Shown: positions 8 to 20,666 of the stretch, piece by piece | Layout of the letters: the number at the start of each line of letters is the position of its first letter | How positions within the stretch are numbered: position 1 is the first letter of the stretch | IMG/VR virus record: IMGVR_UViG_3300049048_000026 | Coordinates: 1 to 33,644 of that record | Length of the DNA stretch: 33,644 bases | Source of the DNA: a virus | Direction: 5' to 3' (one strand) | Program-made: the position numbers and the translations under genes | Notes under the pieces: model-generated | Databases searched by the model: none | What the model saw: only the letters and a program-made list of their open reading frames with translations | Told to the model about the DNA's origin: nothing

Positions 8-442
8 ATGATTGTTCAAAGCTATCCGTCTATTCGTAAACCCGTGACCCCTGTTGTGCCTGTGTTTACGGGTAAGCAGCAGCAACAACAATGGCCTTCT
101 GCTGGAACACCTAGTAGGTTCCCGTTAACTCCAAAGGAAGTGTTGCGAGCAACTAAGCTCAAGATTACCAACGAAGAATACCGACGTCGGGATGACATTG
201 TTCGTGAGACCTACAAGAATTGCCTGCATTTTGTTGGTGATGTTGTTTATCCTCAGAGTAAGGAAGGGATGACCAAGTACGGCAAGTGTCGCATCACTGC
301 ATTGGTTAGCAGTTACTACGATTACGGGGACGATTGGCCGAAGAATGACAATCCCCTCATCGTGCATTTCACCAGTGAAGAGAACGGGCAGGAAGCATTC
401 TCCACTGTGAATTACTTTAAGGAACCGGAAAGCAAATGCTGA
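8..442 (+). CDS. Hypothetical protein, first gene of the amidoligase cluster
   Basis: I do not recognise this 144-residue protein. It starts with MIVQSYPSIRKP, has a Pro/Gln-rich N-terminal third with a run of five glutamines, and a charged middle with a KITNEEYRRRDDIVRETY helix-like stretch. No signal peptide or membrane segment is visible. The stop overlaps the start of the class I glutamine amidotransferase by 7 bases, so it is translationally coupled to the amide-ligation cluster and is probably part of that operon. The few bases before its start do not allow a check of its ribosome binding site. Confidence 0.7.
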   Translation: MIVQSYPSIRKPVTPVVPVFTGKQQQQQWPSAGTPSRFPLTPKEVLRATKLKITNEEYRRRDDIVRETYKNCLHFVGDVVYPQSKEGMTKYGKCRITALVSSYYDYGDDWPKNDNPLIVHFTSEENGQEAFSTVNYFKEPESKC

Positions 443-1089
443 AACTAGGAATTTGTCCAGAGGGTGGGCCAGACGATCCTTCTCATTTCATTGAACTCTT
501 TCCTAAATGGCAAAACATTTCAAAGGATGGCATTGAGGGATGTGATGCTGTAATCTTTTGGGGTGGTACTGACATTCATCCAGAGCTGTATGGTGCTAAA
601 CGCAACTACATGAGCCAAGCCCCAATGCTTGGTCCATCTAGGCGTGATGTGTTTGAAATGAAAGCCATGCAATGGTGCCGTGTCAACAACATTCCGATGA
701 TTGGGGTGTGTCGTGGTGCTCAATTGATGTGTGCCTTTGCTGGTGGTAGTTTAGCTCAGCATGTGACAGGGCATCGTGTCAATCATATGATTAGCACGCT
801 CAACGATGGTGACATGATGGCAACATCTGAACATCATCAGATGATGAACATTTCAGGCACAGACGGGGTGCTTCTTGCGTGGAGTAAAGAGCGCCGCAGC
901 ACCATGTACCAAGGGGAAGATAGCAAGGACATTTTGTCCATGCGTGAGGCACCTGAAGCTGAGATTGTCTATTTCCCCAGCATTAAGGGACTAGCAATTC
1001 AAGGCCATCCTGAATGGTGCAGCGATCCTCTTGAACCCTTCGTGCAATTGTGCAATAAGTATGTCATTCAATATTTGTTTGGAGAGTAA
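436..1089 (+). CDS. Class I glutamine amidotransferase-like hydrolase (peptidase C26 / PuuD-like)
   Basis: This 217-residue protein carries the class I glutamine amidotransferase triad. The nucleophile elbow GVCRGAQL puts the catalytic Cys at residue 92, and GHPEW near the C terminus supplies His191 and Glu193. FWGGTDIHP at about 41-49 matches the GGxD-type oxyanion region of gamma-glutamyl hydrolases. Known members cleave gamma-glutamyl amides or release ammonia from glutamine. It stands alone, without a fused synthetase, and lies upstream of two amidoligases, a class II amidotransferase and an ATP-grasp ligase. I infer that it trims or recycles a gamma-glutamyl or amide-linked product of that pathway. 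Family-level call is strong; substrate unknown. Confidence 0.88.
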   Translation: MLKLGICPEGGPDDPSHFIELFPKWQNISKDGIEGCDAVIFWGGTDIHPELYGAKRNYMSQAPMLGPSRRDVFEMKAMQWCRVNNIPMIGVCRGAQLMCAFAGGSLAQHVTGHRVNHMISTLNDGDMMATSEHHQMMNISGTDGVLLAWSKERRSTMYQGEDSKDILSMREAPEAEIVYFPSIKGLAIQGHPEWCSDPLEPFVQLCNKYVIQYLFGE

Positions 1090-1415
1090 TGATGACTAAG
1101 AAAAAGGTTTATATCAATAGCACTGGTATTGTCAATCTAACCTGTGGGGTGTCGTATCTTGGGTATTTTCGCCATTACAGCAACCACGAGCCTCATTGGG
1201 GTGACCCACCTAATCCAACGATTGCCAATCTTCAAGTACCTCAAGGTGCTGGCTGGTTTATTGCTGGATTCACTAACGAGAAACCGGTCTACGCCGAAGC
1301 ATATGAGCAGTTGAAAGCCAAATACAAGATTGTTTATCAATCTCCTGTCCGTGTGAACACCCGCACTGGACGTCAGTTCTTCTTCTGTATCTACGACGCA
1401 AAGAGCAAACCTTAA
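1089..1415 (+). CDS. Hypothetical protein
   Basis: This is a 108-residue protein that I do not recognise. Its start overlaps the previous stop by one base (TAATG), with GGAGAG just upstream; the ATG at 1092 is an alternative. It is rich in aromatics and Gly/Pro (GYFRHYSNHEPHWGDPPNP) and has no visible membrane segment. It sits between the class I amidotransferase and the COOH-NH2 ligase, so it could be an accessory factor or substrate of the amide-ligation cluster; that is inference from position only. Confidence 0.65.
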   Translation: MMTKKKVYINSTGIVNLTCGVSYLGYFRHYSNHEPHWGDPPNPTIANLQVPQGAGWFIAGFTNEKPVYAEAYEQLKAKYKIVYQSPVRVNTRTGRQFFFCIYDAKSKP

Positions 1416-1424
1416 GGATATGAC

Positions 1425-2174
1425 ATGAGACTCGGTACTGACCCTGAAGTGTTCCTGCAAGATGCCTATGGCAAGCCCGTGAGTGCCATTGGTTACATCG
1501 GTGCAGATAAGTGGAGTCCTCTGCAAGTGCGTGGCCTGCGTAAAGGGTTCACCCTGCAAGAAGACAACGTGGCACTGGAGTTCGGTGTGCCTCCTGCCAG
1601 TAGTGCAGACGAGTTCGTTAAGAACATCCGCACTGTAATGAAAGCTGGCCTGAAGCGTTGCGAAGGTCTATCGTTTAGCCGTCTTTCCTGCACGATTTTC
1701 CCCAAGGATCAGATGCAGCATCCCAATGCGTTCGTGTTTGGCTGTGAGCCTGACTACAATGCATGGACTGGCAAGGAAAACCCCAAGCCTCAGCCTCCGC
1801 ATCAATTTATGCGGTCTGCTGGTGGTCACATCCACATCGAAACCAAGCAGGACCCCAGTTCTGTGGGCCGTCGTATGGACCTGTTTGCAGCAGTTCCGTC
1901 CACGTTAATGGATGAGGGTGAGAAGCGCAAGCAGCTTTATGGCAAGATGGGTGCTATTCGTGTGAAGCCATATGGGGTGGAGTACCGCACCCTGTCCAAC
2001 TTCTGGATTTTCGATGACGAGCTGATTCGCTGGGCATGGAGAGCAACCGAGCGTGCGCTCAACTCCGATCTGCCTGTGGAGAATCTGGAAGAAGCCATCC
2101 GCGAAGCGGTGGACTATGGCAACAAGAACGTTGCTCGTGAGTTGGTGAAAGAGTTTAACCTTGAGGTGATCTGA
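1425..2174 (+). CDS. phiEco32-like COOH-NH2 ligase (type 2 amidoligase, glutamine-synthetase-like fold)
   Basis: This 249-residue protein looks like the phiEco32-type COOH-NH2 ligase family, glutamine-synthetase-like enzymes predicted to join a carboxylate to an amine using ATP. Visible hallmarks are an N-terminal GTDPE (Glu8), LQEDNVALEFG at 44-54 with conserved acids, the metal/nucleotide-binding GGHIHIE at 133-139, and GVEYRTLSNFW at 184-194. An AAGGATATG ribosome site precedes the ATG. It is followed at once by an unknown gene and then a second amidoligase, the arrangement expected of a peptide-ligation operon. The family call is fairly secure; the amine and acid substrates are unknown. 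Confidence 0.85.
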   Translation: MRLGTDPEVFLQDAYGKPVSAIGYIGADKWSPLQVRGLRKGFTLQEDNVALEFGVPPASSADEFVKNIRTVMKAGLKRCEGLSFSRLSCTIFPKDQMQHPNAFVFGCEPDYNAWTGKENPKPQPPHQFMRSAGGHIHIETKQDPSSVGRRMDLFAAVPSTLMDEGEKRKQLYGKMGAIRVKPYGVEYRTLSNFWIFDDELIRWAWRATERALNSDLPVENLEEAIREAVDYGNKNVARELVKEFNLEVI

Positions 2175-2801
2175 ATGAAATTCAGTAGTGACAATCACGC
2201 AGATATCAGTAAGTATTTCAACAACTGTTTCATCAAGATCAAAGAGTCTGGTGACCTGTTGTTCTTTGTCCAGCATGTGTCTCGGACTGAGGTTCGGGGG
2301 GTGTGTGAGACTGGTGCTGAGTTTGCAATCTATCTGGACAATGAGAATCCGTATGAGATTGACTATGTGCTTCCGCACAAGAGCTACTTCCAATTCGGCA
2401 AGGATGCGTGCCAGTTGTACCGCACGCCAGCTAAGCAATATTACCGTGGTCTGAATCAACAGAACACGAACGTTGCTAAGCTGAATAAAGAAGGCACGGG
2501 TCAGGAAGGCATGAAGCTGAGCTTTGACATTCTCAAGGCTTTCGTGTCTAAGCAACCCTTCTTTTCTCTGTCCGAAGCCACAGGTAAGGGTAAGGGCATT
2601 GAAGGCACCAACCACAGTTATGTGCTTACCCCACGGCTGGCCTACCATCGCCTGAGCAAGGGGCTGTATGTCGATGGAATTCGGATTGCTAGTGTGGATG
2701 TTCCGAGCAAGACCATCCAATTCAAGCATCCCATCTTCAAACCCGAGGTTGCAGCATTCCTTGCTCAATCGGGTGAAACCTCCACTTTCACGCTGGTGTA
2801 A
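2175..2801 (+). CDS. Hypothetical protein between two amidoligase genes
   Basis: This 208-residue protein begins directly after the preceding TGA, with GAGGTGAT as a good ribosome site. I do not recognise a domain. The sequence looks soluble and mixed alpha/beta, with a central basic, Gly-rich stretch (ATGKGKGIEGTNHSY) and a C-terminal half suggesting beta strands. It sits between the COOH-NH2 ligase and the second amidoligase with almost no spacing. It may be a subunit, or the protein that is modified, but nothing in the sequence proves it. Confidence 0.7.
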   Translation: MKFSSDNHADISKYFNNCFIKIKESGDLLFFVQHVSRTEVRGVCETGAEFAIYLDNENPYEIDYVLPHKSYFQFGKDACQLYRTPAKQYYRGLNQQNTNVAKLNKEGTGQEGMKLSFDILKAFVSKQPFFSLSEATGKGKGIEGTNHSYVLTPRLAYHRLSKGLYVDGIRIASVDVPSKTIQFKHPIFKPEVAAFLAQSGETSTFTLV

Positions 2802-2803
2802 AT

Positions 2804-3580
2804 ATGAGTACGAAAATTGGTGAGCTTTATGGCTGCGATTCTTACATGGGCCAGAAAAAGTTTATTGCCGGTCTGGAATGCGAGATTGAGGCCATTCCCG
2901 GAGGGAAAGCAAAGCCCTATGCTATCTTCCAGTGCAAGGAAGACCACAGCCTGCGGAACAATGGCTGGGAGTTTGTGAGTATTCCTGAAGACTTGCCCAC
3001 GCTGGTTAGTGAGTTTGCTAAGCTCCAAGCATGGCTGGGTCTGGAAATGTCTCAGGACCCGTTCTCCCATCGTACCAGTACCCATGTGCATGTGAATGTG
3101 TCCAACCTGACGCTGGAACAGGCAAAGAACATGTTGATGTTGTACGCCCTGTACGAGGAATTCTTCTTCGCAATGGTCAAGCCTGAGCGACGTAGCAACA
3201 TCCACTGTGTTCCTCTGACCGAGACTCACCTGCCCATGTATTACAAGCACGAGATTCAAGTGCTTCGTGAAAAGTGGAGTAAGTATTCAGCACTGAACCT
3301 GCTGAGACTTGCTGACTTGGGCACTATGGAGTTCCGCCACCTGCATGGCACTGGTGATGTGCAAGAAGTGGAAACGTGGCTCAAGGTGCTGGAGAATTTG
3401 TGGAAACTGGCACAAGAAGTGGAGATTAATGCTGACACCTTGAGTAATGAGAACGTACTCAAGTTGTGGTTCAGCACCATCTTTGCTCCGTCTGAGAAGA
3501 GTTTAATGCTTAAACCCGCTCTCATGAACATCATCCAGAACAGTTTGGTCGATGTGAAATTCTCGACCCTTAAGGACTAA
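2804..3580 (+). CDS. Amidoligase-family enzyme (Amidoligase_2-like)
   Basis: This 258-residue protein fits the amidoligase enzyme family, a second glutamine-synthetase-fold group that forms amide bonds. Visible features are GLECEIE at 23-29 (family hallmark GxExE), EDHSLRNNGWEFVS at 46-59 (ExD ... EfvS), the histidine strand STHVHVNVSNL at 92-102, and EFRHLHGTGD at 176-185, matching the EfR motif. All key positions expected of an active enzyme appear present. It follows an unknown gene two bases downstream and precedes a class II amidotransferase by three bases, so the set is probably co-expressed. With the COOH-NH2 ligase at 1,425 it gives two distinct amidoligases in one operon. Substrate unknown. 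Confidence 0.85.
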   Translation: MSTKIGELYGCDSYMGQKKFIAGLECEIEAIPGGKAKPYAIFQCKEDHSLRNNGWEFVSIPEDLPTLVSEFAKLQAWLGLEMSQDPFSHRTSTHVHVNVSNLTLEQAKNMLMLYALYEEFFFAMVKPERRSNIHCVPLTETHLPMYYKHEIQVLREKWSKYSALNLLRLADLGTMEFRHLHGTGDVQEVETWLKVLENLWKLAQEVEINADTLSNENVLKLWFSTIFAPSEKSLMLKPALMNIIQNSLVDVKFSTLKD

Positions 3581-3583
3581 GCC

Positions 3584-4918
3584 ATGTGTGGCATCGTAGG
3601 CGTGATTAAGAAAGCCAACTACGGCTTTTACAAGAAGCAGCAGGACAGTTTCTTCCAGATGCTATATGCTGATGCTGTTCGAGGTTGGGACAGCACTGGT
3701 GTGGTTGGCGTGGAAAGGGACGGCTCTTTTCACATTGCCAAGGAAGCTCTAGAAGCTGCCTATGTAATTCCTCAGATCAAAGTAGAGAAGTTCTACAACG
3801 ATAGGATGGACAAAGCCGAGGGCAAGGTGTGGATTGGTCATAACCGCAAGACTACTGTGGGCAAGACCAATGACGAAAACGCCCATCCGTTTGTCATCAA
3901 CAATGAGTTTGCCTTCGTCCATAATGGTACGTTGTTCAATCACGAGCAGCTTGCCAAGACGGATGTGGACAGCAAAGCTCTTGCCATTGTCCTGCATGAA
4001 GCTCTTGGTGAGAAGGATTGGAAGAAGGCCCTAGAAGATACTTTAGGTAAAGTGTATGGGGCATATGCTTGTGCATGGTTCGACCAGCGCCATAACAAGC
4101 TCTTCTTATTGCGAAACAAAGAGCGACCGCTCATTGTTGCTGAGACAGATGATGCTTACTATTGGGCAAGTGAGAGTGCCATGATGTATTGGGTACTCAA
4201 TCGCAACGATTATAAGCACGATGACATTAAATTCCACAAAATGGAAGAGAATGTCTTGTTCAGCTTTGACCTGACGGATACGAAGATGGAGGTGGAGGAA
4301 CTCAAGCCAAAAAAATCTACTCCCCCGGTTCTTTTCCGTACCGGGGGCAGGATGAGTACGGCGGATGGTACAGTCTTTACTAGTAGTCAGAGTGCCGGAG
4401 GTCACTCTTCTTCGGATATGTCCAAAAACCAGCTTAAAGCTCTCCGACGTACTTGGCTGGGCCGCCCTCTTAGGTTTTGGGTTGATGACTATGTGGAGCG
4501 AGATTTCCAATCTGGTGTTTCCCTAGAGGATGGTGCTATCTCGTATATTCTAGGTGACACTGAAATCTTCAACACGAAGAACGCAGTCACTGCACTCATT
4601 GATCCTAAGAAACTCAGCCTCACCAGCCCCAAAATGGTGGTTGATCGCCCATGGATTGGGCACATTGAGAACATGTATTGGGACAAGCAGAGTAAGGAGC
4701 TTAAAATTTGGGTGTTAGAGCCCAAACCCATTGCGTCCTCCATCAGCAGCATTGCAGGCATGAGTGCTGCCCTTGAGAAGTATGTTAAGGAGAAACAAAC
4801 GGAATATGAGAAAACCTTCGGTCCCTTGAAACAAGTGATGCAAGACGGTAAGATTCAACTTCGTACCACCGATAAACAGGAAAAGATTGTTTATGAAACT
4901 CCAATTACTCTCCACTAA
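3584..4918 (+). CDS. Class II glutamine amidotransferase domain protein
   Basis: This 444-residue protein starts MCGIVGVIKK, so Met removal exposes the N-terminal nucleophile Cys2 of Ntn-type class II glutamine amidotransferases. Supporting motifs are RGWDSTG (33-39), GHNRKTTVG (85-93), HPF (101-103) and HNGTL (113-117), the glutamine-binding elements seen in GlmS, PurF and AsnB. The amidotransferase domain covers about residues 1-230. The remaining 200 residues are not a recognisable sugar isomerase or asparagine synthetase domain and may be a docking or acceptor domain. It probably supplies ammonia from glutamine for a ligase in the cluster. AAGGA precedes the start; the 3' end overlaps the ATP-grasp gene by 26 bases. 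Confidence 0.88.
   Translation: MCGIVGVIKKANYGFYKKQQDSFFQMLYADAVRGWDSTGVVGVERDGSFHIAKEALEAAYVIPQIKVEKFYNDRMDKAEGKVWIGHNRKTTVGKTNDENAHPFVINNEFAFVHNGTLFNHEQLAKTDVDSKALAIVLHEALGEKDWKKALEDTLGKVYGAYACAWFDQRHNKLFLLRNKERPLIVAETDDAYYWASESAMMYWVLNRNDYKHDDIKFHKMEENVLFSFDLTDTKMEVEELKPKKSTPPVLFRTGGRMSTADGTVFTSSQSAGGHSSSDMSKNQLKALRRTWLGRPLRFWVDDYVERDFQSGVSLEDGAISYILGDTEIFNTKNAVTALIDPKKLSLTSPKMVVDRPWIGHIENMYWDKQSKELKIWVLEPKPIASSISSIAGMSAALEKYVKEKQTEYEKTFGPLKQVMQDGKIQLRTTDKQEKIVYETPITLH
4322..4347 (+). other. GC-rich inverted repeat inside the class II amidotransferase gene
   Basis: CCCCCGGT at 4322-4329 and ACCGGGGG at 4340-4347 form a perfect 8-bp stem around a 10-base pyrimidine-rich loop. There is no T-run after it, so it does not look like an intrinsic terminator. 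It lies near the border between the amidotransferase domain and the unknown C-terminal domain. Coincidental coding constraint (Pro-Pro and Gly-Gly codons) cannot be excluded. Confidence 0.4.
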
Positions 4919-5615
4919 GAACGGCATGAAGAGTGGCAGTCTCAAGCGACTGTCCGTTGCCTTGACCGCCGCCCTTGGCTATAAGGTGTGGCGTACCGTG
5001 AATGTCCGTACTGATAGGAAACAGTTCAAGTACGGCGATCTTGTTGACAAGCTCCAGCAATACAAATGGTTCAAGCAGCAGGGACTATCAGCACTGGAGT
5101 TCACCACTTCTCAATCGGAGGCTGAAAGTTGGGTTAACAACGACCACACCGTGTTTGGTCGTAAGCTTCTTAATGCTAGCTGTGGTGATGGCATTGTAGT
5201 GTACACACCCGGCCCGGCATTCCTTGGTGTCAATGAAAAACTTCCGGTGTACACCAAATACAAGCCCAAGAAGCGTGAATTCCGTGTTCACGTCTTTAAG
5301 GATAAAGTAGTAACAATCGTTGAAAAACGACGTAAGAAGGACTGGACGGGTGACAAATCAGACGCGAAAATTCGTAACCTCGCTAATGGATATATCTTCT
5401 GCCAAGAAGTTGAACTCACCGATCAGCTCCGAAAGCGAATTGAGGAAATTTCGCTCGCTGCTAGCAAAGTCTGTAGCTCCGACTTCCGTGGAGTTGATGT
5501 CGGTTACAATGAAAAGCATGATGACGTCTTCGTCATCGAAGTGAACAGTGCCCCCGGCATCGAGGGGTCTAATGTGGATAAATACGTTCAAACCATTCTT
5601 CAGTACGCAAAATGA
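4893..5615 (+). CDS. ATP-grasp ligase (RimK-like)
   Basis: This 240-residue protein has the C-terminal signature of the ATP-grasp superfamily: SSDFRGVDVG at 195-204 followed by FVIEVNSAPGIEGSN at 213-227, which supplies the Mg-ATP acidic and Asn residues. Upstream are a nucleotide-loop-like NASCGDGIVVY (94-104) and KPKKREFRVHVF (124-135). ATP-grasp ligases form acyl-phosphate intermediates and join carboxylates to amines, as in RimK or glutathione synthesis. It is shorter than typical ligases of about 300 residues, with a reduced N-terminal region. I chose ATG 4893 because AGGA lies upstream and MKLQLL is a natural start. It is coupled to the class II amidotransferase and to the next gene (ATGA overlap). 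Confidence 0.88.
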   Translation: MKLQLLSTKNGMKSGSLKRLSVALTAALGYKVWRTVNVRTDRKQFKYGDLVDKLQQYKWFKQQGLSALEFTTSQSEAESWVNNDHTVFGRKLLNASCGDGIVVYTPGPAFLGVNEKLPVYTKYKPKKREFRVHVFKDKVVTIVEKRRKKDWTGDKSDAKIRNLANGYIFCQEVELTDQLRKRIEEISLAASKVCSSDFRGVDVGYNEKHDDVFVIEVNSAPGIEGSNVDKYVQTILQYAK

Positions 5616-6295
5616 AATTTAACATTAAACTCACCAATGATTCCCGCTATTGTGAAGTGGGTCAGACCAATCCTCTGCGTTGGAAGACGTTGTTCAAGGA
5701 AAAGGATGGCAGCTTTATCGACCAGAGTGGTTGGATTAAATGCAAGGACTTCTTCAATGACACTCTGGCCTACTTCAAAGTAGGCACAAAGTTTTCAATC
5801 TACGGATACAAGAACGACATTAAGAAGAACGAAGAGGGTGTCTATTTCCTACTCAAAGAGATTAAGGATATGGACAGCTTCATTGACGGTCTAAACGTGA
5901 TGAACGTTCGTCTGTTCAAGGACCTCAAGTGTGAGGTGGCTTATTGGCCGCAAGAAAAAGGTCAGTGTGTCATTCTCCTTCCCAATCAGATTTGGGAATC
6001 CACTTACATCCTGTCCCTTGCAACGATGATTATTCGTTGTGCCAACTATGGTTACAAGTACAAAGAATGGGAAGATTTCTTTGCACCCGGCACTCCCATG
6101 AATACCGTAGAACATGCTTTTACGGAGAAAGCTAAGAAGTTCACCAAGGAGCATGGCTTCCTTGTTCCGAAGGAATATCGGAAATACTGGTGGTTCTTCA
6201 ACAAACAGCACAACAGCGGCACCAACCCCAATGCAACTGGTGGCACCATCCACAACAACGGTGCATGTGAGTGGACTAACGGAATGGTGGCATAA
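5612..6295 (+). CDS. Hypothetical protein at the end of the amidoligase cluster
   Basis: This 227-residue protein overlaps the ATP-grasp stop codon by four bases. I do not recognise a domain. The first half is rich in Lys and aromatics (strand-like FKVGTKFSIYGYKND), the middle has a hydrophobic helix around IWESTYILSLATMIIRC, and the C-terminal 30 residues are low in complexity and rich in Asn, Gly and Thr (SGTNPNATGGTIHNNGAC), suggesting a flexible exposed tail. Position makes it a plausible substrate or partner of the ligases, but this is speculative. Confidence 0.7.
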   Translation: MKFNIKLTNDSRYCEVGQTNPLRWKTLFKEKDGSFIDQSGWIKCKDFFNDTLAYFKVGTKFSIYGYKNDIKKNEEGVYFLLKEIKDMDSFIDGLNVMNVRLFKDLKCEVAYWPQEKGQCVILLPNQIWESTYILSLATMIIRCANYGYKYKEWEDFFAPGTPMNTVEHAFTEKAKKFTKEHGFLVPKEYRKYWWFFNKQHNSGTNPNATGGTIHNNGACEWTNGMVA

Positions 6296-8206: not shown

Positions 8207-8604
8207 CGACATACAACGAAGCGCACAAGAAGTATTTCCAGAACAATAAAGAGGCACTTAGAGAGGTTAGACGCAATTGGAGAACAGCCAATTATGAAAA
8301 ATACATTCTTTCTAGTGCCAAAAACACGGCAAAAGTTAAAGGACTTCCTTTTACTCTAGAGTTGGGTGATATTGTCATTCCTCCTATTTGTCCGTATCTC
8401 GGGATCGAAATTACGAAATCCCAAGAAGGCGAAGGTAGGAAACAATCTAACCCCTCAATAGATCGGATTGTACCAGCACTTGGATATGTGAAAGGGAATA
8501 TTCAAATCATTAGTGATTTAGCCAATCGCATGAAACAGGAGGCAACTCCAGAACAATTAAAAGCGTTTGCACAAAACGTTCTAAAATTGTATGGTTCTTC
8601 CTGA
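8203..8604 (+). CDS. HNH homing-endonuclease-type protein, inserted before the helicase
   Basis: The frame from 8191 encodes a charged N-terminal helix region followed by the HNH-type core: IVIPPICPYLG, PSIDRIVPALGYVKGN, IQIISDLANRMK. The same order (CPY, DRI, GY, N-Q-IS, AN-K) occurs in the HNH protein at 11,533, so the two are related. No ATG exists in the N-terminal part. AAGGAG at 8189-8194 points to ATA 8203 as start (133 residues); TTG 8362 would delete half the protein. It overlaps the stop of the gene before it and runs 14 bases into the helicase gene. I infer a mobile insertion at the helicase start. Family call good, start uncertain. Confidence 0.7.
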   Translation: MTTYNEAHKKYFQNNKEALREVRRNWRTANYEKYILSSAKNTAKVKGLPFTLELGDIVIPPICPYLGIEITKSQEGEGRKQSNPSIDRIVPALGYVKGNIQIISDLANRMKQEATPEQLKAFAQNVLKLYGSS

Positions 8605-9915: not shown

Positions 9916-10124
9916 AATTTCCTAAGAACAGGGCTAACCTGTATGTAGTGGTCCGAGAAGACTACGATGGTGGTGGAGTGTTTAATGTCTCCCTGTTAGG
10001 GGGTTCCTCTGAACTGGAATTCGCAGAAGATTACAAAGACTCTTGCCAACAAGAATGGCTAGACAAAGTGGGGCATCTAGAGGGTGCTAAATTTGTAACT
10101 AGGTTAACAACCTTCTATGGCTGA
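9912..10124 (+). CDS. Small hypothetical protein
   Basis: This 70-residue protein starts MKFPKNRANLYVVVRED and looks like a small beta-rich soluble protein with an acidic middle. Its start overlaps the microprotein stop (ATGA) and its end overlaps the polymerase start by eight bases, so it is inside the replication operon. No domain recognised. Confidence 0.7.
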   Translation: MKFPKNRANLYVVVREDYDGGGVFNVSLLGGSSELEFAEDYKDSCQQEWLDKVGHLEGAKFVTRLTTFYG

Positions 10125-11238
10125 GCTTGCGCTTGACGTAGAAAGTACAACATGGAATAAAGGTAATCCTTACGATAGCCGTAATAAGTTGGTGTGTTAT
10201 AGCTGGGCAACCGACCACTCACACAATGCGCAACTTTGGCCTGCTCAGACAGAGGTTCAAACCAGCATCAATGAGTCCAGTTTAATTGTAGGCTTTAACT
10301 TTAAGTTCGACTACCACTGGCTAGCTAAGGAAGGGGTGGACTTAACAAAGTCCAAGATTTGGGACGTCCAGATTGCTGAGTTCATCTTGTCTAATCAAAC
10401 CAACCGTTTTCCTTCTCTCGACCAAACGTGTGAGAAATACGGTATTGCGAAGAAACTGGATGTAGTTAAGACAGAGTATTGGGACAAGGGAATTAACACT
10501 GATGCTATTCCATGGGACGTGCTTCGGGAATATGCTGCACACGATGCGGCGATTACCCTGCAATGTTACCATGCACAGCTAAAGTCGATGACTCCTGCCC
10601 AAGTGATGCTCTGTAAGCTGATGTGCCAAGACCTGCACATCTTACGGGAAATGGAAGCTAATGGACTTCCCTATGACGAAGAGCTGTGTCAACAACGCAG
10701 CATGGAGGTAGATGACCAGATATCAAAGATTAAACACGAACTCGCAGCTATTTATCCCCACATTCCTCTTAATTTTGGTTCTAACGATCATTTGTCTGCC
10801 TTTCTTTATGGTGGCGTGGTTAAGGAAGAAGCTAAAGAGCACGTTGGTTTTTATAAAGGGGGTCAAAAAGCCGGACAACCTAAATACAAAAATGTGATTG
10901 TTGAGCATCAGCTTCCTAGACTGTATACGCCTCTCAAGGGCAGCGAACTATTGAAAGAGGGAATGTTCGCCACAGATGAGGGTACTCTCAGGAAACTTAA
11001 GGGCAAACAGAAAGTCATCAACCTGCTGTTAGAGCTTGCCAAGCTAGAAAAACGTAATGGCACATACTACAAAGGGTTGGTTAAATTGCGAGAGGAAATG
11101 CATTGGCCCAAAGGAAAACTCCATGGTCAGTTTAACCAATGTGTTGCGGCAACTGGTCGTCTTAGTAGCAGTAAGCCTAACTTACAGAATTTTGACAGCC
11201 AACTCCAAGACATCTTTATCTCCGAGTATCGAGATTAG
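10117..11238 (+). CDS. DNA polymerase A family, N-terminal part (3'-5' exonuclease plus start of polymerase domain)
   Basis: This 373-residue protein is the front half of a T7/Pol I-type replicative polymerase. The proofreading exonuclease motifs are intact: LALDVES (Asp7, Glu9), VGFNFKFD (Asn61, Asp65) and YAAHD (Asp143). The polymerase domain begins with the thumb region and reaches GRLSSSKPNLQN at 347-358, just before catalytic motif A. It then stops after IFISEYRD at a TAG (11236-11238). Family A polymerases of this type are about 650-800 residues, so this is a truncated piece. The missing motifs A, B and C occur downstream from 11,990. Alone it could proofread but not synthesise DNA. Confidence 0.88.
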   Translation: MAELALDVESTTWNKGNPYDSRNKLVCYSWATDHSHNAQLWPAQTEVQTSINESSLIVGFNFKFDYHWLAKEGVDLTKSKIWDVQIAEFILSNQTNRFPSLDQTCEKYGIAKKLDVVKTEYWDKGINTDAIPWDVLREYAAHDAAITLQCYHAQLKSMTPAQVMLCKLMCQDLHILREMEANGLPYDEELCQQRSMEVDDQISKIKHELAAIYPHIPLNFGSNDHLSAFLYGGVVKEEAKEHVGFYKGGQKAGQPKYKNVIVEHQLPRLYTPLKGSELLKEGMFATDEGTLRKLKGKQKVINLLLELAKLEKRNGTYYKGLVKLREEMHWPKGKLHGQFNQCVAATGRLSSSKPNLQNFDSQLQDIFISEYRD

Positions 11239-11518: not shown

Positions 11519-11537
11519 GATGTTAATTCAATGTGAC
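11519..11537 (+). repeat. Direct repeat, left copy (18/19 match with 11989-12007)
   Basis: The 19-base sequence GATGTTAATTCAATGTGAC matches the right copy at 11989-12007 at all but one base. Read in the polymerase frame from the ATG, it encodes MLIQCD, the residues leading into polymerase motif A. The left copy runs into the HNH gene, whose GTG start lies inside it, so it is a displaced exon fragment created when the HNH element inserted. Confidence 0.75.
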
Positions 11538-12006
11538 TCCTGAAGACAAGAAACAGAAACGCCGTGAATATTATCTACGTAGGAAAGACTATTACCTAGA
11601 ACAGAATAAACAATGGCGTGAAGCAAACAAAGAGCACAGAGCACAACATGCAGCCAAGAAGCATAGAGAACGAAAAGAGCAGAATCCAGCTCTCTATCTG
11701 TGGAAGTATGCCAAAGCTCGTGCTAGATATGACAACATGGATTTCGATTTAGAGATTACGGATATTGTTATTCCAGCCGTGTGTCCTTACTTTAAGACAC
11801 CGTTTGTGATGAATGACCAACATCTTGCAGCTTCTCTAGATAGAATTGATTCCAATAAAGGCTACACGAAAGACAACATCCAAGTGATTAGTTATCGTGC
11901 AAATAAAATGAAAAATGATGCAACAGTGCAAGAGCTGATCTCTTTTGCCAAAGGTGTTCTTGAAGTCCACCAAGGAGGTCAGGGCTGCGATGTTGATTCA
12001 ATGTGA
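11533..12006 (+). CDS. HNH homing-endonuclease-type protein inserted in the DNA polymerase gene
   Basis: This 157-residue protein has a very basic, helical N-terminal half (EDKKQKRREYYLRRKDYY, then many Arg/Lys/Gln), typical of DNA-binding linkers of homing endonucleases. The C-terminal nuclease core is IVIPAVCPYFKTPF, ASLDRIDSNKGYTKDN, IQVISYRANKMKND, closely paralleling the HNH at 8,203. The GTG start and the stop both fall within the 19-bp direct repeats. HNH enzymes of the I-HmuI type are known from phage DNA polymerase introns, so this location is typical. I see no convincing group I ribozyme core around it and treat it as a free-standing insertion. Confidence 0.8.
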   Translation: MTPEDKKQKRREYYLRRKDYYLEQNKQWREANKEHRAQHAAKKHRERKEQNPALYLWKYAKARARYDNMDFDLEITDIVIPAVCPYFKTPFVMNDQHLAASLDRIDSNKGYTKDNIQVISYRANKMKNDATVQELISFAKGVLEVHQGGQGCDVDSM

Positions 12007-12007: not shown

Positions 12008-12709
12008 GCTTCGCAGCTTTAGCCCGAATGGAGGACAATCCTCCAGCTTGCGAACGACCAGACAGGTATTCAGGAGGTACTGGACAAAGCGGACGCGCAC
12101 TCGCTCAATCAGGTCGCGTTCCAATTGCCTAGCCGCCTCATTGCCAAAATCTACCTATTCCGTACAATTTTCAGGGGATCGGGTTGGAGTTTTGCGAACG
12201 ATCCTGATTTCATGCACGTTAGCGCGGACCCGAAATATTGGGATGAGGTAAACGTAAAGTTCTTCACCAAGTATGCAGGCATTGACGCCTGTCATCAACG
12301 GTGGAAGGATGCAGTCATGCACCATGGCGTGATTCACGGACCTTTAGGCAGGTCGTGGTCTATCGGCATGAAGCGTGACAAGCGTGGTGAGCTTAAGATT
12401 CCATGGACGGTGCTGTCCAACTACCCTGTGCAGGGAACTGGTGCAGACGTAATGATGCTTGCTAGATTGATGGCCCATAAACGAATTAAAAAGGCCAATA
12501 TCGAATGCAAATTTATTTCCACTGTCCACGATAGCATTGTGCTGGACGCGCCTCAGAAGTCGATTGAGCCCCTTGCAGAGCTATTCCATGGTGTCTTCCA
12601 AGATATTCCCAAAGTCATTAAACAGAACTTTGGATATGACTGGATTGTGCCTATGGCCTGTGAATGCAAGTGGGGTAAAAACATGAAAGACATGGAGAAA
12701 ATGTCTTGA
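11990..12709 (+). CDS. DNA polymerase A family, C-terminal part, interrupted by an in-frame TAG
   Basis: From ATG 11990 the frame reads MLIQCDASQL, then TAG and CCC (12020-12025), then EWRTILQLAND and on to 12709. Family A motif A should read DASQLEWR without a break, so two extra codons, one a stop, sit inside the catalytic motif. After that the fragment is well preserved: KADAHSLNQVAF, motif B-like RLIAKIYLFRTIFRGSG, and motif C TVHDSIVLD. Without the interruption it would supply palm and fingers for the N-terminal part at 10,117. The longest uninterrupted piece with a start codon is TTG 12125-12709. Either recoding is needed or this polymerase is inactive. Confidence 0.7.
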
Positions 12710-13755: not shown

Positions 13756-14537
13756 TTGAGACAGCCCTCATTGATTCGGATATCGTGGCTTACCGGTGTG
13801 CGGCAGCAACAGAAAATGACACTGAGGACATTGCACGATGGCAAACCTCAGAAATGATGCGAAGGATTCTACATGAAACGAACGCTATGCGCTATAAGTG
13901 TTTTATTAGCGGTAGTGATAATTTCCGTTACGCTGTATATCCTGAGTACAAGGCAAATCGCAAGGACATGCCAAAGCCAAAACACCTCCAAGTTGTGCGA
14001 GAGCACCTTGTTACTGAATGGCAAGCAGTAATTGCAGATGGTGTTGAAGCAGATGACTTGATGGGAATTGCACAATGTTCTGAGCATGACGGAGATACCG
14101 TCATCTGCACGATAGACAAGGACCTTTTGATGATTCCCGGACGTCATTACAACTTTGTCAAGCAGGAGTTTCGTCATGTGTCTCCCTTAGAGGGTATTAG
14201 GCACCTGTATTTGCAAGCGATTCTTGGAGATCGTGCTGACAACATCTTCGGTTTTGATGGCAAAGCGAGGTCTAAAGTGCCAAAATTTCTACAAGATAAT
14301 GTAGATGTTATTGAGACACTGACTGATGAATCTGATATGTTTGATTACGTCAGAGACATGTATAATGACGATGTTAGATACTTAACGAATCTCTCCTGTC
14401 TGTGGATTCAACGACACGATGGAGATTTCTATTTTAGACGGGAGGTTGTACGGCAAAAGGCAAAGATATTACAGGAAACCGCTATGGACGACTCATTGCT
14501 GTGCGTCCTACAGAACATCGAAAAAACAATAATGTGA
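13752..14537 (+). CDS. Flap/T7 gp6-like 5'-3' exonuclease
   Basis: This is a 5'-nuclease of the T5 D15/T7 gp6 class, about 261 residues. Visible are the N-terminal metal site ALIDSDIVAYR, the arch helix FRYAVYPEYKANRKDMPKP, acidic motifs EADDLMGIA and CTIDKDLLMIPG, and the H2TH region LGDRADNIFG. It would remove RNA primers or degrade DNA from 5' ends. I chose GTG 13752 because it forms a GTGA overlap with the previous stop; TTG 13740 adds four residues. Its last 30 residues or so overlap the HNH gene in another frame and may be a novel tail created by that insertion. Confidence 0.85.
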   Translation: MIETALIDSDIVAYRCAAATENDTEDIARWQTSEMMRRILHETNAMRYKCFISGSDNFRYAVYPEYKANRKDMPKPKHLQVVREHLVTEWQAVIADGVEADDLMGIAQCSEHDGDTVICTIDKDLLMIPGRHYNFVKQEFRHVSPLEGIRHLYLQAILGDRADNIFGFDGKARSKVPKFLQDNVDVIETLTDESDMFDYVRDMYNDDVRYLTNLSCLWIQRHDGDFYFRREVVRQKAKILQETAMDDSLLCVLQNIEKTIM

Positions 14538-14974
14538 TGTGGGAATGTCTCTGTGATTGTGGTACGACTACGATCAAGAGACAAGGAGCTTTACAAAGTA
14601 ATAGTGTGATCTCGTGCGGATGTGCTAAGAATACACTCCCTCCGGGAGAAAGCTCTTTTCATTTTCTTTTAGATCATTATAAGCGCAACGCGACAAAACG
14701 TGGGTACTCGTTTGAACTCACTAAAGAACAGTTCAGAAAACTTACCAGACAACCTTGTCATTATTGCTCGCTTCTTCCTTCTCAAATAATGGTTTCCCGG
14801 ACATTTAGGGAGCCATACATCTATAACGGAGTTGATCGGAAAAACAACTCTATTGGGTACACTATTGATAATAGTGTTACTTGTTGTGGACAATGTAACA
14901 AAGCTAAAGGAACTACCAATTACGAAGATTTCATACTTTGGATAAAACGCTTGGTAAAACACCATGCCTCGTAA
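14450..14974 (+). CDS. HNH homing-endonuclease-type protein overlapping the exonuclease 3' end
   Basis: The frame open from 14438 encodes AKGKDITGNRYGRLIAV, the typical N terminus of a phage HNH family that normally reads MxxxDLTGQRFGRLTV, then a zinc module (CLCDCG ... SCGC), then the HNH core: PCHYCSL, NGVDRKNNSIGYTIDN, CCGQCNKAKG. No ATG exists at the expected start. ACG 14450, just after GGAGG (14441-14445), is the natural position; ATT 14468 or GTG 14501 are alternatives that shorten the protein. It overlaps the exonuclease by nearly 90 bases. Family call secure, start doubtful. Confidence 0.75.
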   Translation, partial: TAKGKDITGNRYGRLIAVRPTEHRKNNNVMWECLCDCGTTTIKRQGALQSNSVISCGCAKNTLPPGESSFHFLLDHYKRNATKRGYSFELTKEQFRKLTRQPCHYCSLLPSQIMVSRTFREPYIYNGVDRKNNSIGYTIDNSVTCCGQCNKAKGTTNYEDFILWIKRLVKHHAS

Positions 14975-15335
14975 ATACAACAACGGACAATGGACCCAAG
15001 CTAGATTCCACGCGTTTGTTACTTCTGTGCTTAGAGCCGGATCACGACGATGGGCACCTAAGTACGAGACCCTAAACGCAGCTAAGACAGAAAAGAAAAT
15101 TAATCAGAAAACTGGACGTCTTGCACAACACTACAGGTGCAATGTCTGTAAAGAAGAATTTACAAGCAAGGACGTACAGGTTGACCACATCAAGCCCATT
15201 ATCAATCCCAAGAAAGGCTTTACCTCTTGGGACGACTATGTGGATGCCTTGTTCTGTGAGTCTAAAAATCTCCAAACTATTTGTAAGCCTTGTCACAAAC
15301 TCAAGACTGCAAAGGAACGTAAACAAACTAAGTGA
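14964..15335 (+). CDS. HNH endonuclease (phage-type)
   Basis: This 123-residue protein has a canonical HNH nuclease core: RCNVCKEEF (zinc pair), VQVDHIKPIINP with the catalytic DH, then LQTICKPCHKLKTAKE with the second zinc pair and HNH histidine. The N-terminal part is basic (MPRKYNNGQWTQARF). It differs from the homing-type HNH proteins elsewhere here by its conventional ATG. Such stand-alone HNH proteins occur in many podophage replication regions, where roles in DNA processing or host DNA breakdown have been suggested. Confidence 0.88.
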   Translation: MPRKYNNGQWTQARFHAFVTSVLRAGSRRWAPKYETLNAAKTEKKINQKTGRLAQHYRCNVCKEEFTSKDVQVDHIKPIINPKKGFTSWDDYVDALFCESKNLQTICKPCHKLKTAKERKQTK

Positions 15336-17127: not shown

Positions 17128-17269
17128 GGAGAGGCGCGGTAAGCGCCGATACCGTATGCGTGTTATCCAAGAACAAGAAGCTAAGGAATATGTAAATGAC
17201 TATTTCGTTGAGGACCAAAATCCTCAACGGCTTTCACCGATGGGAAAGAAACGATATGACCAATGTTAA
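17078..17269 (+). CDS. Small basic hypothetical protein
   Basis: In another frame over the end of the acidic gene, ATG 17078 opens a 63-residue protein (MTKSKKIQRNSTELADEERR). It is highly charged, with a basic middle (RRGKRRYRMRVIQEQEAKEY) and a short C-terminal tail ending DQC. No good ribosome site is visible. The C-terminal half looks genuine; the N-terminal start is uncertain. The LAGLIDADG gene begins inside its last codons. Confidence 0.5.
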   Translation: MTKSKKIQRNSTELADEERRGKRRYRMRVIQEQEAKEYVNDYFVEDQNPQRLSPMGKKRYDQC

Positions 17270-17606
17270 CACAGCATGGGCGGCTGGTCTAATTGAAGGT
17301 GAGGGGTGTTTTATTTTATCAAAAGATAAACGCAGCAATCATCATAAAGTAGCCATTCAGGTTGAAATGACGGACAAAGACACTCTGGACAACCTCCAAA
17401 AAATCTTAGGAGGTACCATCATTGAGAGTAATTATCCGTCAAAGTTCAAGAGATTTCCCAACGCCAAACCTTCATGGCGTTGGTATGTTCATAAACAACA
17501 AGAAGTGTTTAGTGTTTTAATTGAGATTATGCCGTTCTTGAAAACTAGACGATTGCAACGGGCACAAGAACTGTTTAACTACTTAGAGCCTAAAGTATGC
17601 CTGTAA
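17256..17606 (+). CDS. LAGLIDADG homing-endonuclease-like protein upstream of thyX
   Basis: This 116-residue protein carries one LAGLIDADG motif as AWAAGLIEGEGCF near its N terminus, with the acidic Glu of the motif kept. Single-motif members act as homodimers and cleave long DNA sites. The rest (VEMTDKDTLDNLQKILGG, KPSWRWYVH, FLKTRRLQRA) matches the usual beta-sheet and C-terminal helices. I chose ATG 17256 (MTNVNTAW); ATG 17196 in frame adds 20 residues that look like shadow coding. It overlaps its neighbours at both ends and is wedged directly before thyX. Confidence 0.82.
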   Translation: MTNVNTAWAAGLIEGEGCFILSKDKRSNHHKVAIQVEMTDKDTLDNLQKILGGTIIESNYPSKFKRFPNAKPSWRWYVHKQQEVFSVLIEIMPFLKTRRLQRAQELFNYLEPKVCL

Positions 17607-18229
17607 AACTCGTCTGGACTACTCAGGGAGGTGAGCAGCTTATTGGGGACATGGCTAGAGTATCAGCTCCTGAGAATGTGGGTAAAGATGCCACAAAACT
17701 CATGGGATATCTTATCAAAAACCATCATTGGTCACCATTTGAAATGGTGAATGCTTGTTTTGAAATTGAGACTACGCGGGACATTGCTCGTCAAATCCTT
17801 AGGCATCGAAGCTTCTCTTTCCAAGAATTTAGCCAACGGTATGCAGAGGTGGACAAACTTCCCCGCGCTCAAGTACGAGAAGCTAGATTACAGGACACTA
17901 AGAATAGACAAAATAGTCTGGAGACAGACAAACAAGACCTCTGTGATTGGTGGGAATTTACCCAAGCTGATTTACAAGAACATTGCCAGTATGTTTACGA
18001 ACAGGCTCTTAAGAATGGTATTGCTAAAGAGGTAGCTCGTGCTGTTCTGCCCGAAGGTCTGACCACTAGTAAAATGTACATGAACGGGACACTCCGTTCG
18101 TGGATTCATTATTGTGAGTTGCGCTCCGGTAACGGTACTCAGAAAGAACATGCTGCCATTGCTTTAGCAGTCAGTAATTTGTTATCTCAACACTATCCGA
18201 ATGTATGGAAAGCCCTAGTAAACCAGTAA
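17597..18229 (+). CDS. thyX: Flavin-dependent thymidylate synthase ThyX
   Basis: This 210-residue protein contains the diagnostic ThyX motif at 69-82, RHRSFSFQEFSQRY (consensus RHRxxSxNExSxRY). Other family features are ARVSAPENVGKD near the N terminus, the NHHWSPFEM histidine-serine loop, and the C-terminal ARAVLPEGLTTSKMYMNGTL and RSWIHYCELR segments that bind dUMP and FAD. It makes dTMP from dUMP using methylene-tetrahydrofolate and NADPH without releasing dihydrofolate. It lies next to the class II ribonucleotide reductase, giving the phage a DHFR-independent dTTP route. Confidence 0.93.
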   Translation: MPVKLVWTTQGGEQLIGDMARVSAPENVGKDATKLMGYLIKNHHWSPFEMVNACFEIETTRDIARQILRHRSFSFQEFSQRYAEVDKLPRAQVREARLQDTKNRQNSLETDKQDLCDWWEFTQADLQEHCQYVYEQALKNGIAKEVARAVLPEGLTTSKMYMNGTLRSWIHYCELRSGNGTQKEHAAIALAVSNLLSQHYPNVWKALVNQ

Positions 18230-18372: not shown

Positions 18373-18509
18373 AACCTGAACAATATACTATGTTAAAGCT
18401 GCAAGCCTTGCAGTTTGCTAACGGCGATCTACAAAAGGCTAAGCTCATTCTGAAATGGCTGCTCAAAACCCAAGATGAAGATAACAAACCGGAGGCACCC
18501 ACCGAGTGA
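18369..18509 (+). CDS. Small hypothetical protein before ribonucleotide reductase
   Basis: This 46-residue helical protein starts at an ATGA overlap (MKPEQYTMLKLQALQFANGD) and ends in a charged, Pro-rich tail. Its GTGA end overlaps the reductase start at 18506, and its final codons contain the GGAGG (18491-18495) used as ribosome site for the reductase. It may mainly serve coupling. No domain recognised. Confidence 0.6.
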   Translation: MKPEQYTMLKLQALQFANGDLQKAKLILKWLLKTQDEDNKPEAPTE

Positions 18510-20377
18510 ATGATTATCAGCAGTTTATCGCTAAAAGCCGATATGCCCGATGGCTTGACCACAAAGGACGACGAGAGTCTTGGGACGAGACAGTAACTCG
18601 ATACTGTGACTTCTGGAAAAACCGAGCAGGAGATTTGTTTCCTTATGATGACATTCATTCAGCGATTTATAATCTCGAAGTGATGCCCTCCATGCGGGCT
18701 TTAATGACCGCTGGCGATGCACTGAACCGAGACAACATTGCTGGATACAACTGCTCGTATATTCCTGTCGATGATCCTCGTGCCTTTGACGAGATTATGT
18801 ACATCTTGATGAACGGTACAGGCGTTGGCTATTCAGTTGAACGTCAATATGTTCAACGTCTCCCGGAAGTGGCTGAGAAATTCTATGACACAGACACGGT
18901 TATCAAAGTTGCAGATAGCAAGCAAGGATGGGCAAGTTCTCTACGCCAACTTATCTCGCTCCTTTATTCGGGCCAGACTCCCAAGCTCGATGTTAGCGGA
19001 GTTCGACCGGCTGGTGCCCGTCTTAAGACCTTTGGCGGAAGAGCGTCGGGACCCGGTCCTCTGCTTGAATTGTTCCATTTCACTACTTCGCTATTTAAGC
19101 GTGCTAGCGGGCGGAAGCTTACGTCTGTCGAATGCAGCGACCTTGTATGCAAGATTGCAGAAGTCGTCGTGGTTGGTGGGGTTAGGAGATCGGCGCTTAT
19201 TTGTCTTTCCAATCTCACGGATGAACGAATGCGGAACTACAAAAACGGTCAATGGTGGGTTGACGAAAAGCAGCGATCATTAGCCAATATCAGTGCTGCA
19301 TACACAGAGCAGCCGGATATTGGTATCTTTATGAAAGAGTGGAGTGCTCTGTATGAGTCTAAGTCAGGAGAGCGTGGTATCTTTAACCGAGTCGCAGCGA
19401 AAAAAGCTGCAGAAACAACTGGACGTCGTGATTCGGGATTTGAATTCGGTACAAATCCGTGCGGAGAAATTGTACTCCGACCTTTTGGTTTCTGCAACCT
19501 TACCGAGGTCGTCGTACGAGCGCACGACACGACTGATTCACTCCAAAAGAAAGTTGAACTGGCTACTATACTCGGAACCTTCCAAAGCACTCTAACAGAC
19601 TTTAAGTACATCCGAAAGGTCTGGCAGAACAATGCTGAAGAAGAGCGTCTGCTGGGGGTCAGTATGACCGGTATCATGGATAATGATTTCCTCTCTAAGC
19701 CTAGCAAAGAGCTAGAAGAAACTCTGGAAGGATTGCGTTTACATGCTGTGGATGTTAACAAAGCTTGGGCTGGGCGTCTTGGTATCAATCCTAGCGCTGC
19801 TATCACCACTGTTAAGCCCTCTGGAACTGTCTCGCAGTTGGTTGATTCTGCCAGTGGGATTCATCCTCGGCATAGCCCTTATTACATCCGCACTGTTCGA
19901 TCTGATTACAAAGATCCTCTTGCTGTTTTCTTGAAAGACAAGGGCGTACCTACGGAAGTGGACGTTACTAGTCCCACCAACTTGGTATTTTCTTTCCCCA
20001 TCAAGAGTCCAGATAAGGCGGTCTTCCGACAGGATGTGTCTGCTATCAACCAGCTTGAGCATTACCTCATTTTTAAGAAACATTGGTGTGAGCACAATCC
20101 CTCCATCACCGTGTATGTTAAAGAGCACGAATGGTTGGATGTTGGCGCATGGGTGTTTAAGAACATGAACTATATTGGTGGAGTTAGTTTTCTGCCGTTC
20201 TCGGATCATGTTTACCAACAAGCCCCTTATCAGGACATTGACCAGTCTACTTATGCGAAACTGGAACAGGAGTTTCCTCGATTTGATTGGGCAGAGTTTG
20301 ACAAGTATGAGGTTGATGATTCGGTGATTAACTATAGCGAGTTTGCTTGTGTTAACGGTGCGTGCGAAATCAACTGA
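18506..20377 (+). CDS. nrdJ: Adenosylcobalamin-dependent (class II) ribonucleotide reductase
   Basis: This 623-residue protein is a class II RNR, turning ribonucleotides into deoxyribonucleotides with a B12-derived thiyl radical. NPCGEI at 317-322 holds the radical Cys319 and Glu321. Cys83 (YNCSY) and Cys330 (GFCNLTEVV) form the active-site redox pair. KPSGTVSQL fits the phosphate-binding loop. The C-terminal pair Cys615/Cys620 (CVNGAC) would shuttle electrons from thioredoxin. The length fits the compact monomeric class rather than NrdA, and no NrdB-like partner is visible. GTG 18506 is supported by GGAGG ten bases upstream. The 3' end overlaps a LAGLIDADG gene. Confidence 0.92.
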   Translation: MNDYQQFIAKSRYARWLDHKGRRESWDETVTRYCDFWKNRAGDLFPYDDIHSAIYNLEVMPSMRALMTAGDALNRDNIAGYNCSYIPVDDPRAFDEIMYILMNGTGVGYSVERQYVQRLPEVAEKFYDTDTVIKVADSKQGWASSLRQLISLLYSGQTPKLDVSGVRPAGARLKTFGGRASGPGPLLELFHFTTSLFKRASGRKLTSVECSDLVCKIAEVVVVGGVRRSALICLSNLTDERMRNYKNGQWWVDEKQRSLANISAAYTEQPDIGIFMKEWSALYESKSGERGIFNRVAAKKAAETTGRRDSGFEFGTNPCGEIVLRPFGFCNLTEVVVRAHDTTDSLQKKVELATILGTFQSTLTDFKYIRKVWQNNAEEERLLGVSMTGIMDNDFLSKPSKELEETLEGLRLHAVDVNKAWAGRLGINPSAAITTVKPSGTVSQLVDSASGIHPRHSPYYIRTVRSDYKDPLAVFLKDKGVPTEVDVTSPTNLVFSFPIKSPDKAVFRQDVSAINQLEHYLIFKKHWCEHNPSITVYVKEHEWLDVGAWVFKNMNYIGGVSFLPFSDHVYQQAPYQDIDQSTYAKLEQEFPRFDWAEFDKYEVDDSVINYSEFACVNGACEIN

Positions 20378-20666
20378 TATTGCTTGGGCTGCTGGTTTGA
20401 TTGAGGGTGAGGGTTGTTTTACGGTTCATTCTAAAAAGCACCCTTATCTTCTGTTAGACATGTGTGACAAAGATGTTATTGAAAGGCTCCACAGCATTTT
20501 CCCCTATGGGAATGTTCGTGGCCCCTATCTTAGCAAGAAGCCCAACCATAAACCACGCTGGCGTTTTGACGCCTTTGGTCCCAAATGTCGAAGAATTATT
20601 CTAGATATTTATCCTTATATGTGCAAACGACGCAAAGAGCGTATTAATGAATTAATGGAGCTTTAA
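20358..20666 (+). CDS. LAGLIDADG homing-endonuclease-like protein after ribonucleotide reductase
   Basis: This roughly 102-residue protein has one LAGLIDADG motif (IAWAAGLIEGEGCF) at its N terminus and the strand/helix pattern of a single-motif homodimeric endonuclease (LDMCDKDVIERLHSIF, KPRWRFDAFG, MCKRRKERINELMEL). It shares WAAGLIEGEGCF and a K-P-x-W-R-W/F motif with the protein at 17,256 and is slightly smaller. No ATG is available; GTG 20358 is the likely start and GTG 20349 or TTG 20343 are alternatives. All lie within the conserved last codons of the reductase gene, and no ribosome site is visible. Confidence 0.8.
   Translation: MRAKSTDIAWAAGLIEGEGCFTVHSKKHPYLLLDMCDKDVIERLHSIFPYGNVRGPYLSKKPNHKPRWRFDAFGPKCRRIILDIYPYMCKRRKERINELMEL

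Follow-up and report, generated by a model that had tools for sequence, protein, structure and literature searches.

The window analyzed here is the whole 33,644-base viral record IMGVR_UViG_3300049048_000026 (IMG/VR), which belongs to a tailed phage related to short-tailed phages. Positions 436–5615 contain five enzyme genes, coding for a class I glutamine-amidotransferase-fold hydrolase (GAT1), a COOH-NH2 ligase, a second carboxylate-amine ligase (Amidoligase_2), a class II glutaminase (GAT2), and a RimK-like ATP-grasp ligase, together with a conserved protein of 208 amino acids (P5). This gene set is a new, complete example of a phage cassette that is already known, and its arrangement is not in itself new. 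We consider it probable (about 60%) that it is a podophage amide-ligase cassette, for putative peptidoglycan modification, in which γ-glutamyl-centred ligation would be combined with trimming by a hydrolase and with P5 as a scaffold, the product being made during infection.

Profile searches (Pfam and PHROG) gave matches for all five enzymes, in the families that an earlier note on this DNA had named. The COOH-NH2 ligase matched COOH-NH2_lig (PF14395; E-value 9.6e-14, 51.7 bits against a gathering score of 25) and phrog_3815 (6.7e-71); Amidoligase_2 matched PF12224 (4.2e-8); GAT1 matched Peptidase_C26 (1.1e-16) and the glutamine amidotransferase family phrog_7218 (9e-25); GAT2 matched GATase_6 (7.1e-17); and the ATP-grasp ligase matched RimK (5.5e-6) and phrog_2599 (1.4e-44). 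Residue conservation was counted over approximately 76–90 relatives, depending on the protein. The GAT1 triad (Cys92/His191/Glu193, the Cys-His-Glu of the C26 family) is present in the window and invariant in 76/76 relatives, and GAT2 carries an N-terminal Cys nucleophile (C2, kept in 99% of 85), GHNR..T and HNG motifs, and the other near-invariant residues R88, N114, G115, and D129. All near-invariant residues of the ATP-grasp ligase (K53, E129, R131, K145, D202, E216, and N218, the last two in 82/82) and of the COOH-NH2 ligase (D6, E8, E52, H135, H137, R179, E186, and R188) are likewise found in the window, as are residues E25/E27, H94/H96, and E176/R178 of Amidoligase_2, kept across 87 loci. 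These results bore out the claim of the earlier note that the active-site motifs are intact.

In the window, the COOH-NH2 ligase, Amidoligase_2, GAT2, and ATP-grasp genes lie in one adjacent cluster. Conservation of this cluster was surveyed using profiles that started from the window and ten annotated phages and were then iterated over 92 loci. Of these loci, 80 come from viral contigs detected through the COOH-NH2 ligase, and one (L001) is a duplicate of the window; a wrong open reading frame (ORF) row, L004:11329-11997, was left out of these profiles. The order GAT1, COOH-NH2 ligase, P5, Amidoligase_2, GAT2, ATP-grasp ligase, as in the window, was found in 61 of the 92 loci, which is far above chance and shows that the genes travel together in related phages. 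The other loci were mostly truncated, or lacked GAT1 and contained a γ-glutamyl cyclotransferase (GGCT) gene, or had GAT2 ahead of the COOH-NH2 ligase. Annotated relatives with the same set are phages of Alcaligenes, Vibrio, Pseudomonas, Pseudoalteromonas, Citrobacter, and Escherichia, and the COOH-NH2 ligase, used as cassette marker, matched 317 sequenced phage records, many of them phages of Pseudomonas and Escherichia. Among named phages, the GAT1 and GAT2 of the window are matched best by Alcaligenes phage vB_Af_QDWS535 (OK172329), which has the same gene order but differs in an additional GGCT gene upstream and in enzymes that are only about 32–42% identical to those of the window. A genome scan for bacterial chromosomal relatives returned 12 contigs from metagenome-assembled genomes; those inspected look like phage contigs placed in bins, and no host pathway that would reveal the substrate was found among them.

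The arrangement had been thought uncharacterised in the earlier note, together with its product; the latter statement stands, but the arrangement is already in the literature under the name of peptidoglycan modification cassette (PMC5498523; PMC11945000). It was described as a seven-gene cassette of RIO-1-like podoviruses, with a hypothesis of superinfection prevention, and was also recognized in phiEco32, 7-11, PA11, tf, MR299-2, LUZ24, PaP3, and CW02 (PMC5498523); this paper cites Hardies 2013 and Iyer for the cassette. For the LUZ24-like version two hypotheses have been offered, superinfection exclusion or the making of endolysin targets (PMC11945000), and PMC10580990 traces the cell-wall and superinfection idea to Iyer 2009. 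Cassette genes are also listed in the papers on UFV-P2 and TC6. The cassette of RIO-1/PSA-HP1, phiEco32, 7-11, PA11, tf, LUZ24, PaP3, and CW02 shares with the window the COOH-NH2 ligase, Amidoligase_2, the class II glutaminase, the ATP-grasp ligase, a small conserved ORF (about 180–210 aa) between the two ligases, and the position beside primase and replication genes. The window differs in carrying GAT1 as C26 hydrolase with no GGCT match in the vicinity of the cassette, in the lack of C-terminal CxxC pairs in GAT2, and in the location of GAT2 after Amidoligase_2, whereas in RIO-1 and PA11 it precedes the COOH-NH2 ligase. The same genes have also been treated as nitrogen-metabolism genes (PMC10945688), that is, as auxiliary genes raising the supply of glutamate or amino acids, as for Phage-ZRK32. 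This was suggested from the growth effects of phage addition, but the effect came from the whole phage and not from the cassette genes, and simple nitrogen assimilation would require neither ATP-consuming ligases nor a non-catalytic partner that is conserved at a constant place in the gene order; we regard this explanation as very improbable.

The cassette chemistry looks γ-glutamyl-centred, because the COOH-NH2 ligase resembles YbdK and γ-glutamylcysteine ligases, GAT1 resembles γ-glutamyl-amide hydrolases, and the ATP-grasp ligase resembles α-glutamate ligases. Regarding GAT1, profile comparison with solved structures gave Lin1909 (1.6e-19), 7d4r (1.8e-12), and PuuD (1.4e-8), with 7d50 and 7d53 also among the nearest, and its best NCBIfam match was γ-glutamyl-CDP-amidate hydrolase (GCDPHdlase; 1e-11), below cut-off. 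These matches agree with the role of trimmer that the earlier note gave to the class I hydrolase, as opposed to that of an ammonia supplier. PuuD and CDP-amidate hydrolase take γ-glutamyl groups off small amides. GAT1 has the fold family and the Cys-His-Glu triad in common with the PuuD/SpuA-type and γ-glutamyl-CDP-amidate hydrolases, but it scores under every curated equivalog cut-off (45.3 against 250 bits for NF045546 and 20.1 against 266 for NF008471); judged from its sequence, it may work like these enzymes without being a member of their equivalogs.

The NCBIfam match of GAT1 also bears on a possible, if doubtful, alternative, namely that the cassette makes a diffusible γ-glutamyl-derived metabolite (an amine, amidate, or peptide) directed at the host or at rival phages, γ-glutamate being a removable carrier. 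γ-Glutamate serves as such a carrier in butirosin biosynthesis, in putrescine catabolism, and in formation of the Campylobacter phosphoramidate. Two different γ-glutamyl-removing enzymes, GAT1 and GGCT, accompany the core, and reduced systems made up of the COOH-NH2 ligase plus GAT1 or GGCT point in the same direction: contigs L097, L098, and L103, binned in metagenome-assembled genomes, contain the COOH-NH2 ligase together with GAT1-like and GGCT genes and not the rest of the cassette, which links the ligase to γ-glutamyl removal. Genes not seen on L097 may lie beyond this contig, which is short; L098 and L103 have the look of phage contigs, although their bins are those of a bacterium and an archaeon. 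Against a small-molecule product, no transporter or tailoring gene is recurrent in the cassette.

Whole-record searches of 60 records, 59 of them bearing the module, showed that GAT1 or GGCT was present in 59/59 of the latter: GAT1 alone in 48, both in four, and GGCT alone in seven. The sixtieth record (L073) had the COOH-NH2 ligase alone and neither of the two. Counts by record name in the phage collection show a similar trend: of the records named for Pseudomonas, 121 contain the COOH-NH2 ligase, 105 GGCT, and 16 GAT1, and of those named for Escherichia, 93 contain the ligase and 93 GGCT. GAT1 was absent from 7/11 GGCT records (Fisher p 6e-6). However, on the COOH-NH2 ligase tree, in which the position of RIO-1 (L008) is unreliable owing to its long branch, the GGCT-only state needs only about two changes and an independent-pairs test gave p 1. 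Since shared ancestry can explain the pattern, an exchange of the two enzymes is not statistically supported, and complementarity between them was dropped as a candidate.

Sequence searches with the COOH-NH2 ligase and Amidoligase_2 revealed no solved structural relatives of either protein. The AlphaFold2 model of the COOH-NH2 ligase (predicted local distance difference test, pLDDT, 96.7) has a glutamine synthetase (GS) fold, with VIA Z scores of 13.6 for YbdK, 13.1 for the bifunctional glutathione synthetase GshF, and 13.0 for plant glutamate-cysteine ligase (GCL), followed by Dop (12.6), GS (12.4), and PafA (11.7). With the YbdK/γ-glutamylcysteine ligase branch the model shares its fold (Z 13–13.6 across 204–218 residues), but identity is just 11–15%. 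Based on this model, the enzyme is a predicted γ-glutamyl-type carboxylate-amine ligase. In loci L029 (375-1070), L032 (3884-4582), and L037 (4428-5177), another ORF resembling Amidoligase_2, though more distantly, lies several kb upstream of the cassette and may code for a third GS-fold ligase.

The nearness of the model to Dop and PafA is relevant to a protein-tagging version of the peptide-tagging pathway suggested in the earlier note. In this version, a short γ-linked or poly-glutamyl tag would be placed on a protein of the host or the phage, in the way that RimK modifies ribosomal protein S6 and PafA uses Pup. The ATP-grasp ligase is RimK-like, and a role in protein modification has been suggested for phage ATP-grasp enzymes of other families (PMC4431377). 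On the other hand, neither a recurrent Pup-like tag ORF nor an obvious protein substrate was noticed in the cassette, no search aimed at Pup having been made, and the relatives of GAT1 and GGCT are enzymes of small γ-glutamyl amides and not protein peptidases. Protein tagging is one of several readings, in our judgement an unlikely one, and the evidence favours it neither over a cell-wall nor over a small-molecule product.

P5 is the sixth core component. The earlier note placed the five enzymes correctly, but it did not list two ORFs within the cluster, one of which is P5; a profile match to this protein was found in the window and in 87/92 loci, without exception between the COOH-NH2 ligase and Amidoligase_2. 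A DNA-pattern search with the single sequence found nothing, whereas the profile derived from syntenic ORFs did find P5. The protein is without a Pfam family and has a weak PHROG match (phrog_11055, 2.4e-4). Its AlphaFold2 model (pLDDT 93.7) contains many short strands; Foldseek searches with this model gave no match at E<=0.001, and the nearest solved structures were small SH3/Sm-type β-barrels (VIA Z no higher than 4.7, with most alignments spanning some 55–60 residues). The model is suggestive of a β-barrel-rich protein with an SH3/Sm-like N-terminal part, the region after residue 100 or so being barely covered by these comparisons. P5 is presumed to be a non-catalytic adaptor.

GAT2 has a C-terminal region that contains at least two CxxC pairs in 48/86 loci and none in the window or its nearest relatives. 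In the case of the ATP-grasp ligase, the N-terminal region is shorter than in isolate-phage relatives, and its nearest relatives are the α-glutamate ligases RimK, LysX, MptN, and CofF; the profile used for comparing it with solved relatives still included the wrong ORF row mentioned above.

From the enzyme families, we infer the following reactions, step order, product, and target. The two GS-fold ligases would spend ATP in joining a carboxylate, probably the γ-carboxylate of glutamate, to an amine, and one amidation would draw its ammonia from the class II glutaminase. An amino acid, probably glutamate, may be added by the RimK-like ATP-grasp ligase through an α-amide. The C26 hydrolase would strip a γ-glutamyl carrier or protecting group or trim the product, a γ-glutamyl cyclotransferase probably taking its place in other phages, and P5 would serve the ligases as a non-catalytic β-barrel scaffold. 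As the target of such a putative product, the cell wall is named most often; the product would presumably be made during infection, since the cassette lies beside primase, helicase, and polymerase genes. Several points weigh against this peptidoglycan-modifying, γ-glutamyl-centred scheme. The scores of GAT1 and the ATP-grasp ligase fall far under every equivalog cut-off set for a characterised enzyme; the fold matches of the COOH-NH2 ligase model to members of the GS superfamily (YbdK, GCL, Dop, GS, and PafA) are tied within about 1–2 Z units, so that γ-glutamyl specificity is suggested by the model and not proven; a cell-wall target would follow from published analogy; and the published accounts found give no cassette enzyme a demonstrated activity, nor a demonstrated product. 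As a variant that we consider quite unlikely, the GS-fold ligases could load glutamate on a substrate, the loaded group being elaborated on the P5 scaffold and released by GAT1 or GGCT, to give a small molecule or a surface decoration in hundreds of phages during infection.

The genes of the cassette and its neighbours are collected in Table 1. The earlier note described all the enzyme genes as coupled by short overlaps. The block is indeed densely packed, despite junctions that mostly are not overlaps: GAT2 and the ATP-grasp gene (26-nt overlap) are the sole pair of named enzyme genes overlapping directly, and the remaining junctions, some of them via intervening ORFs, are a 1-nt overlap or gaps of 0–9 nt. 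All junctions were taken straight from the sequence: GAT1 and the accessory ORF overlap by 1 nt, and the spacing is 9 nt from the accessory ORF to the COOH-NH2 ligase gene, 0 nt from the latter to P5, 2 nt from P5 to Amidoligase_2, and 3 nt from Amidoligase_2 to GAT2. At the borders, u144 and GAT1 overlap by 7 nt and the ATP-grasp gene and d227 by 4 nt. Positional conservation of u144 and d227 was seen chiefly among the nearest relatives of the cassette. The accessory ORF is located downstream of the ATP-grasp gene in two of its three other loci; its rarity and varying position indicate that it is accessory and not a core part.

Table 1. Genes of the cassette and flanking open reading frames in the window.
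Feature	Position	Strand	Basis
u144, ORF upstream of GAT1	8..442	+	Same place upstream of GAT1 in about 16 closest loci
GAT1, class I glutamine-amidotransferase-fold hydrolase, Peptidase C26 family	436..1089	+	Pfam, PHROG, PDB profile, NCBIfam, residues
Accessory ORF, 108 aa	1089..1415	+	No family; 3 other loci only
COOH-NH2 ligase, GS fold, PF14395, phiEco32-type	1425..2174	+	Profiles, AlphaFold2 model, residues
P5, 208 aa, conserved sixth core component	2175..2801	+	Synteny profile, AlphaFold2 model
Amidoligase_2, GS-fold family PF12224, second carboxylate-amine ligase	2804..3580	+	Profile, residues
GAT2, class II glutamine amidotransferase, N-terminal nucleophile (Ntn) glutaminase domain (Cys2) and C-terminal extension	3584..4918	+	Profile, motifs, residues
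RimK-like ATP-grasp ligase	4893..5615	+	Start ATG at 4893; profiles, residues
d227, ORF directly downstream of the ATP-grasp gene	5612..6295	+	4-nt overlap; kept in 17 other loci

An Rfam search of the whole window gave no match, and at the gathering threshold no group I intron was detected in it; promoter- and terminator-like sites in the window were not clearly above shuffled sequence. Within or beside the replication genes there are six small endonuclease-like ORFs, two of which matched HNH (14964-15335) and LAGLIDADG (17196-17606); the other four (8362-8604, 11533-12006, 14501-14974, and 20343-20666) had no Pfam match and resemble endonucleases by eye only. The polymerase gene is apparently split (10117-11238 and 12125-12709). 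The window also codes for a ThyX-type thymidylate synthase (17597-18229), a B12-dependent-type ribonucleotide reductase (18506-20377), and, on the minus strand, a late-region protein of 1,777 amino acids (21348-26681) whose sole domain match is LPD23 (large polyvalent protein).

The window adds a clean six-gene version to the known members of the cassette. Its comparison with related phages points to the core component P5, passed over in the first reading, and to a γ-glutamyl-hydrolysing step, and hence to the choice of the first enzymatic assays. If γ-glutamate were a removable carrier in this system, the cassette would not edit peptidoglycan peptides directly but would give the phages a kind of biosynthetic pathway that has yet to be described. 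If the cassette alters the host surface, it could account for superinfection exclusion in the phages that bear it.

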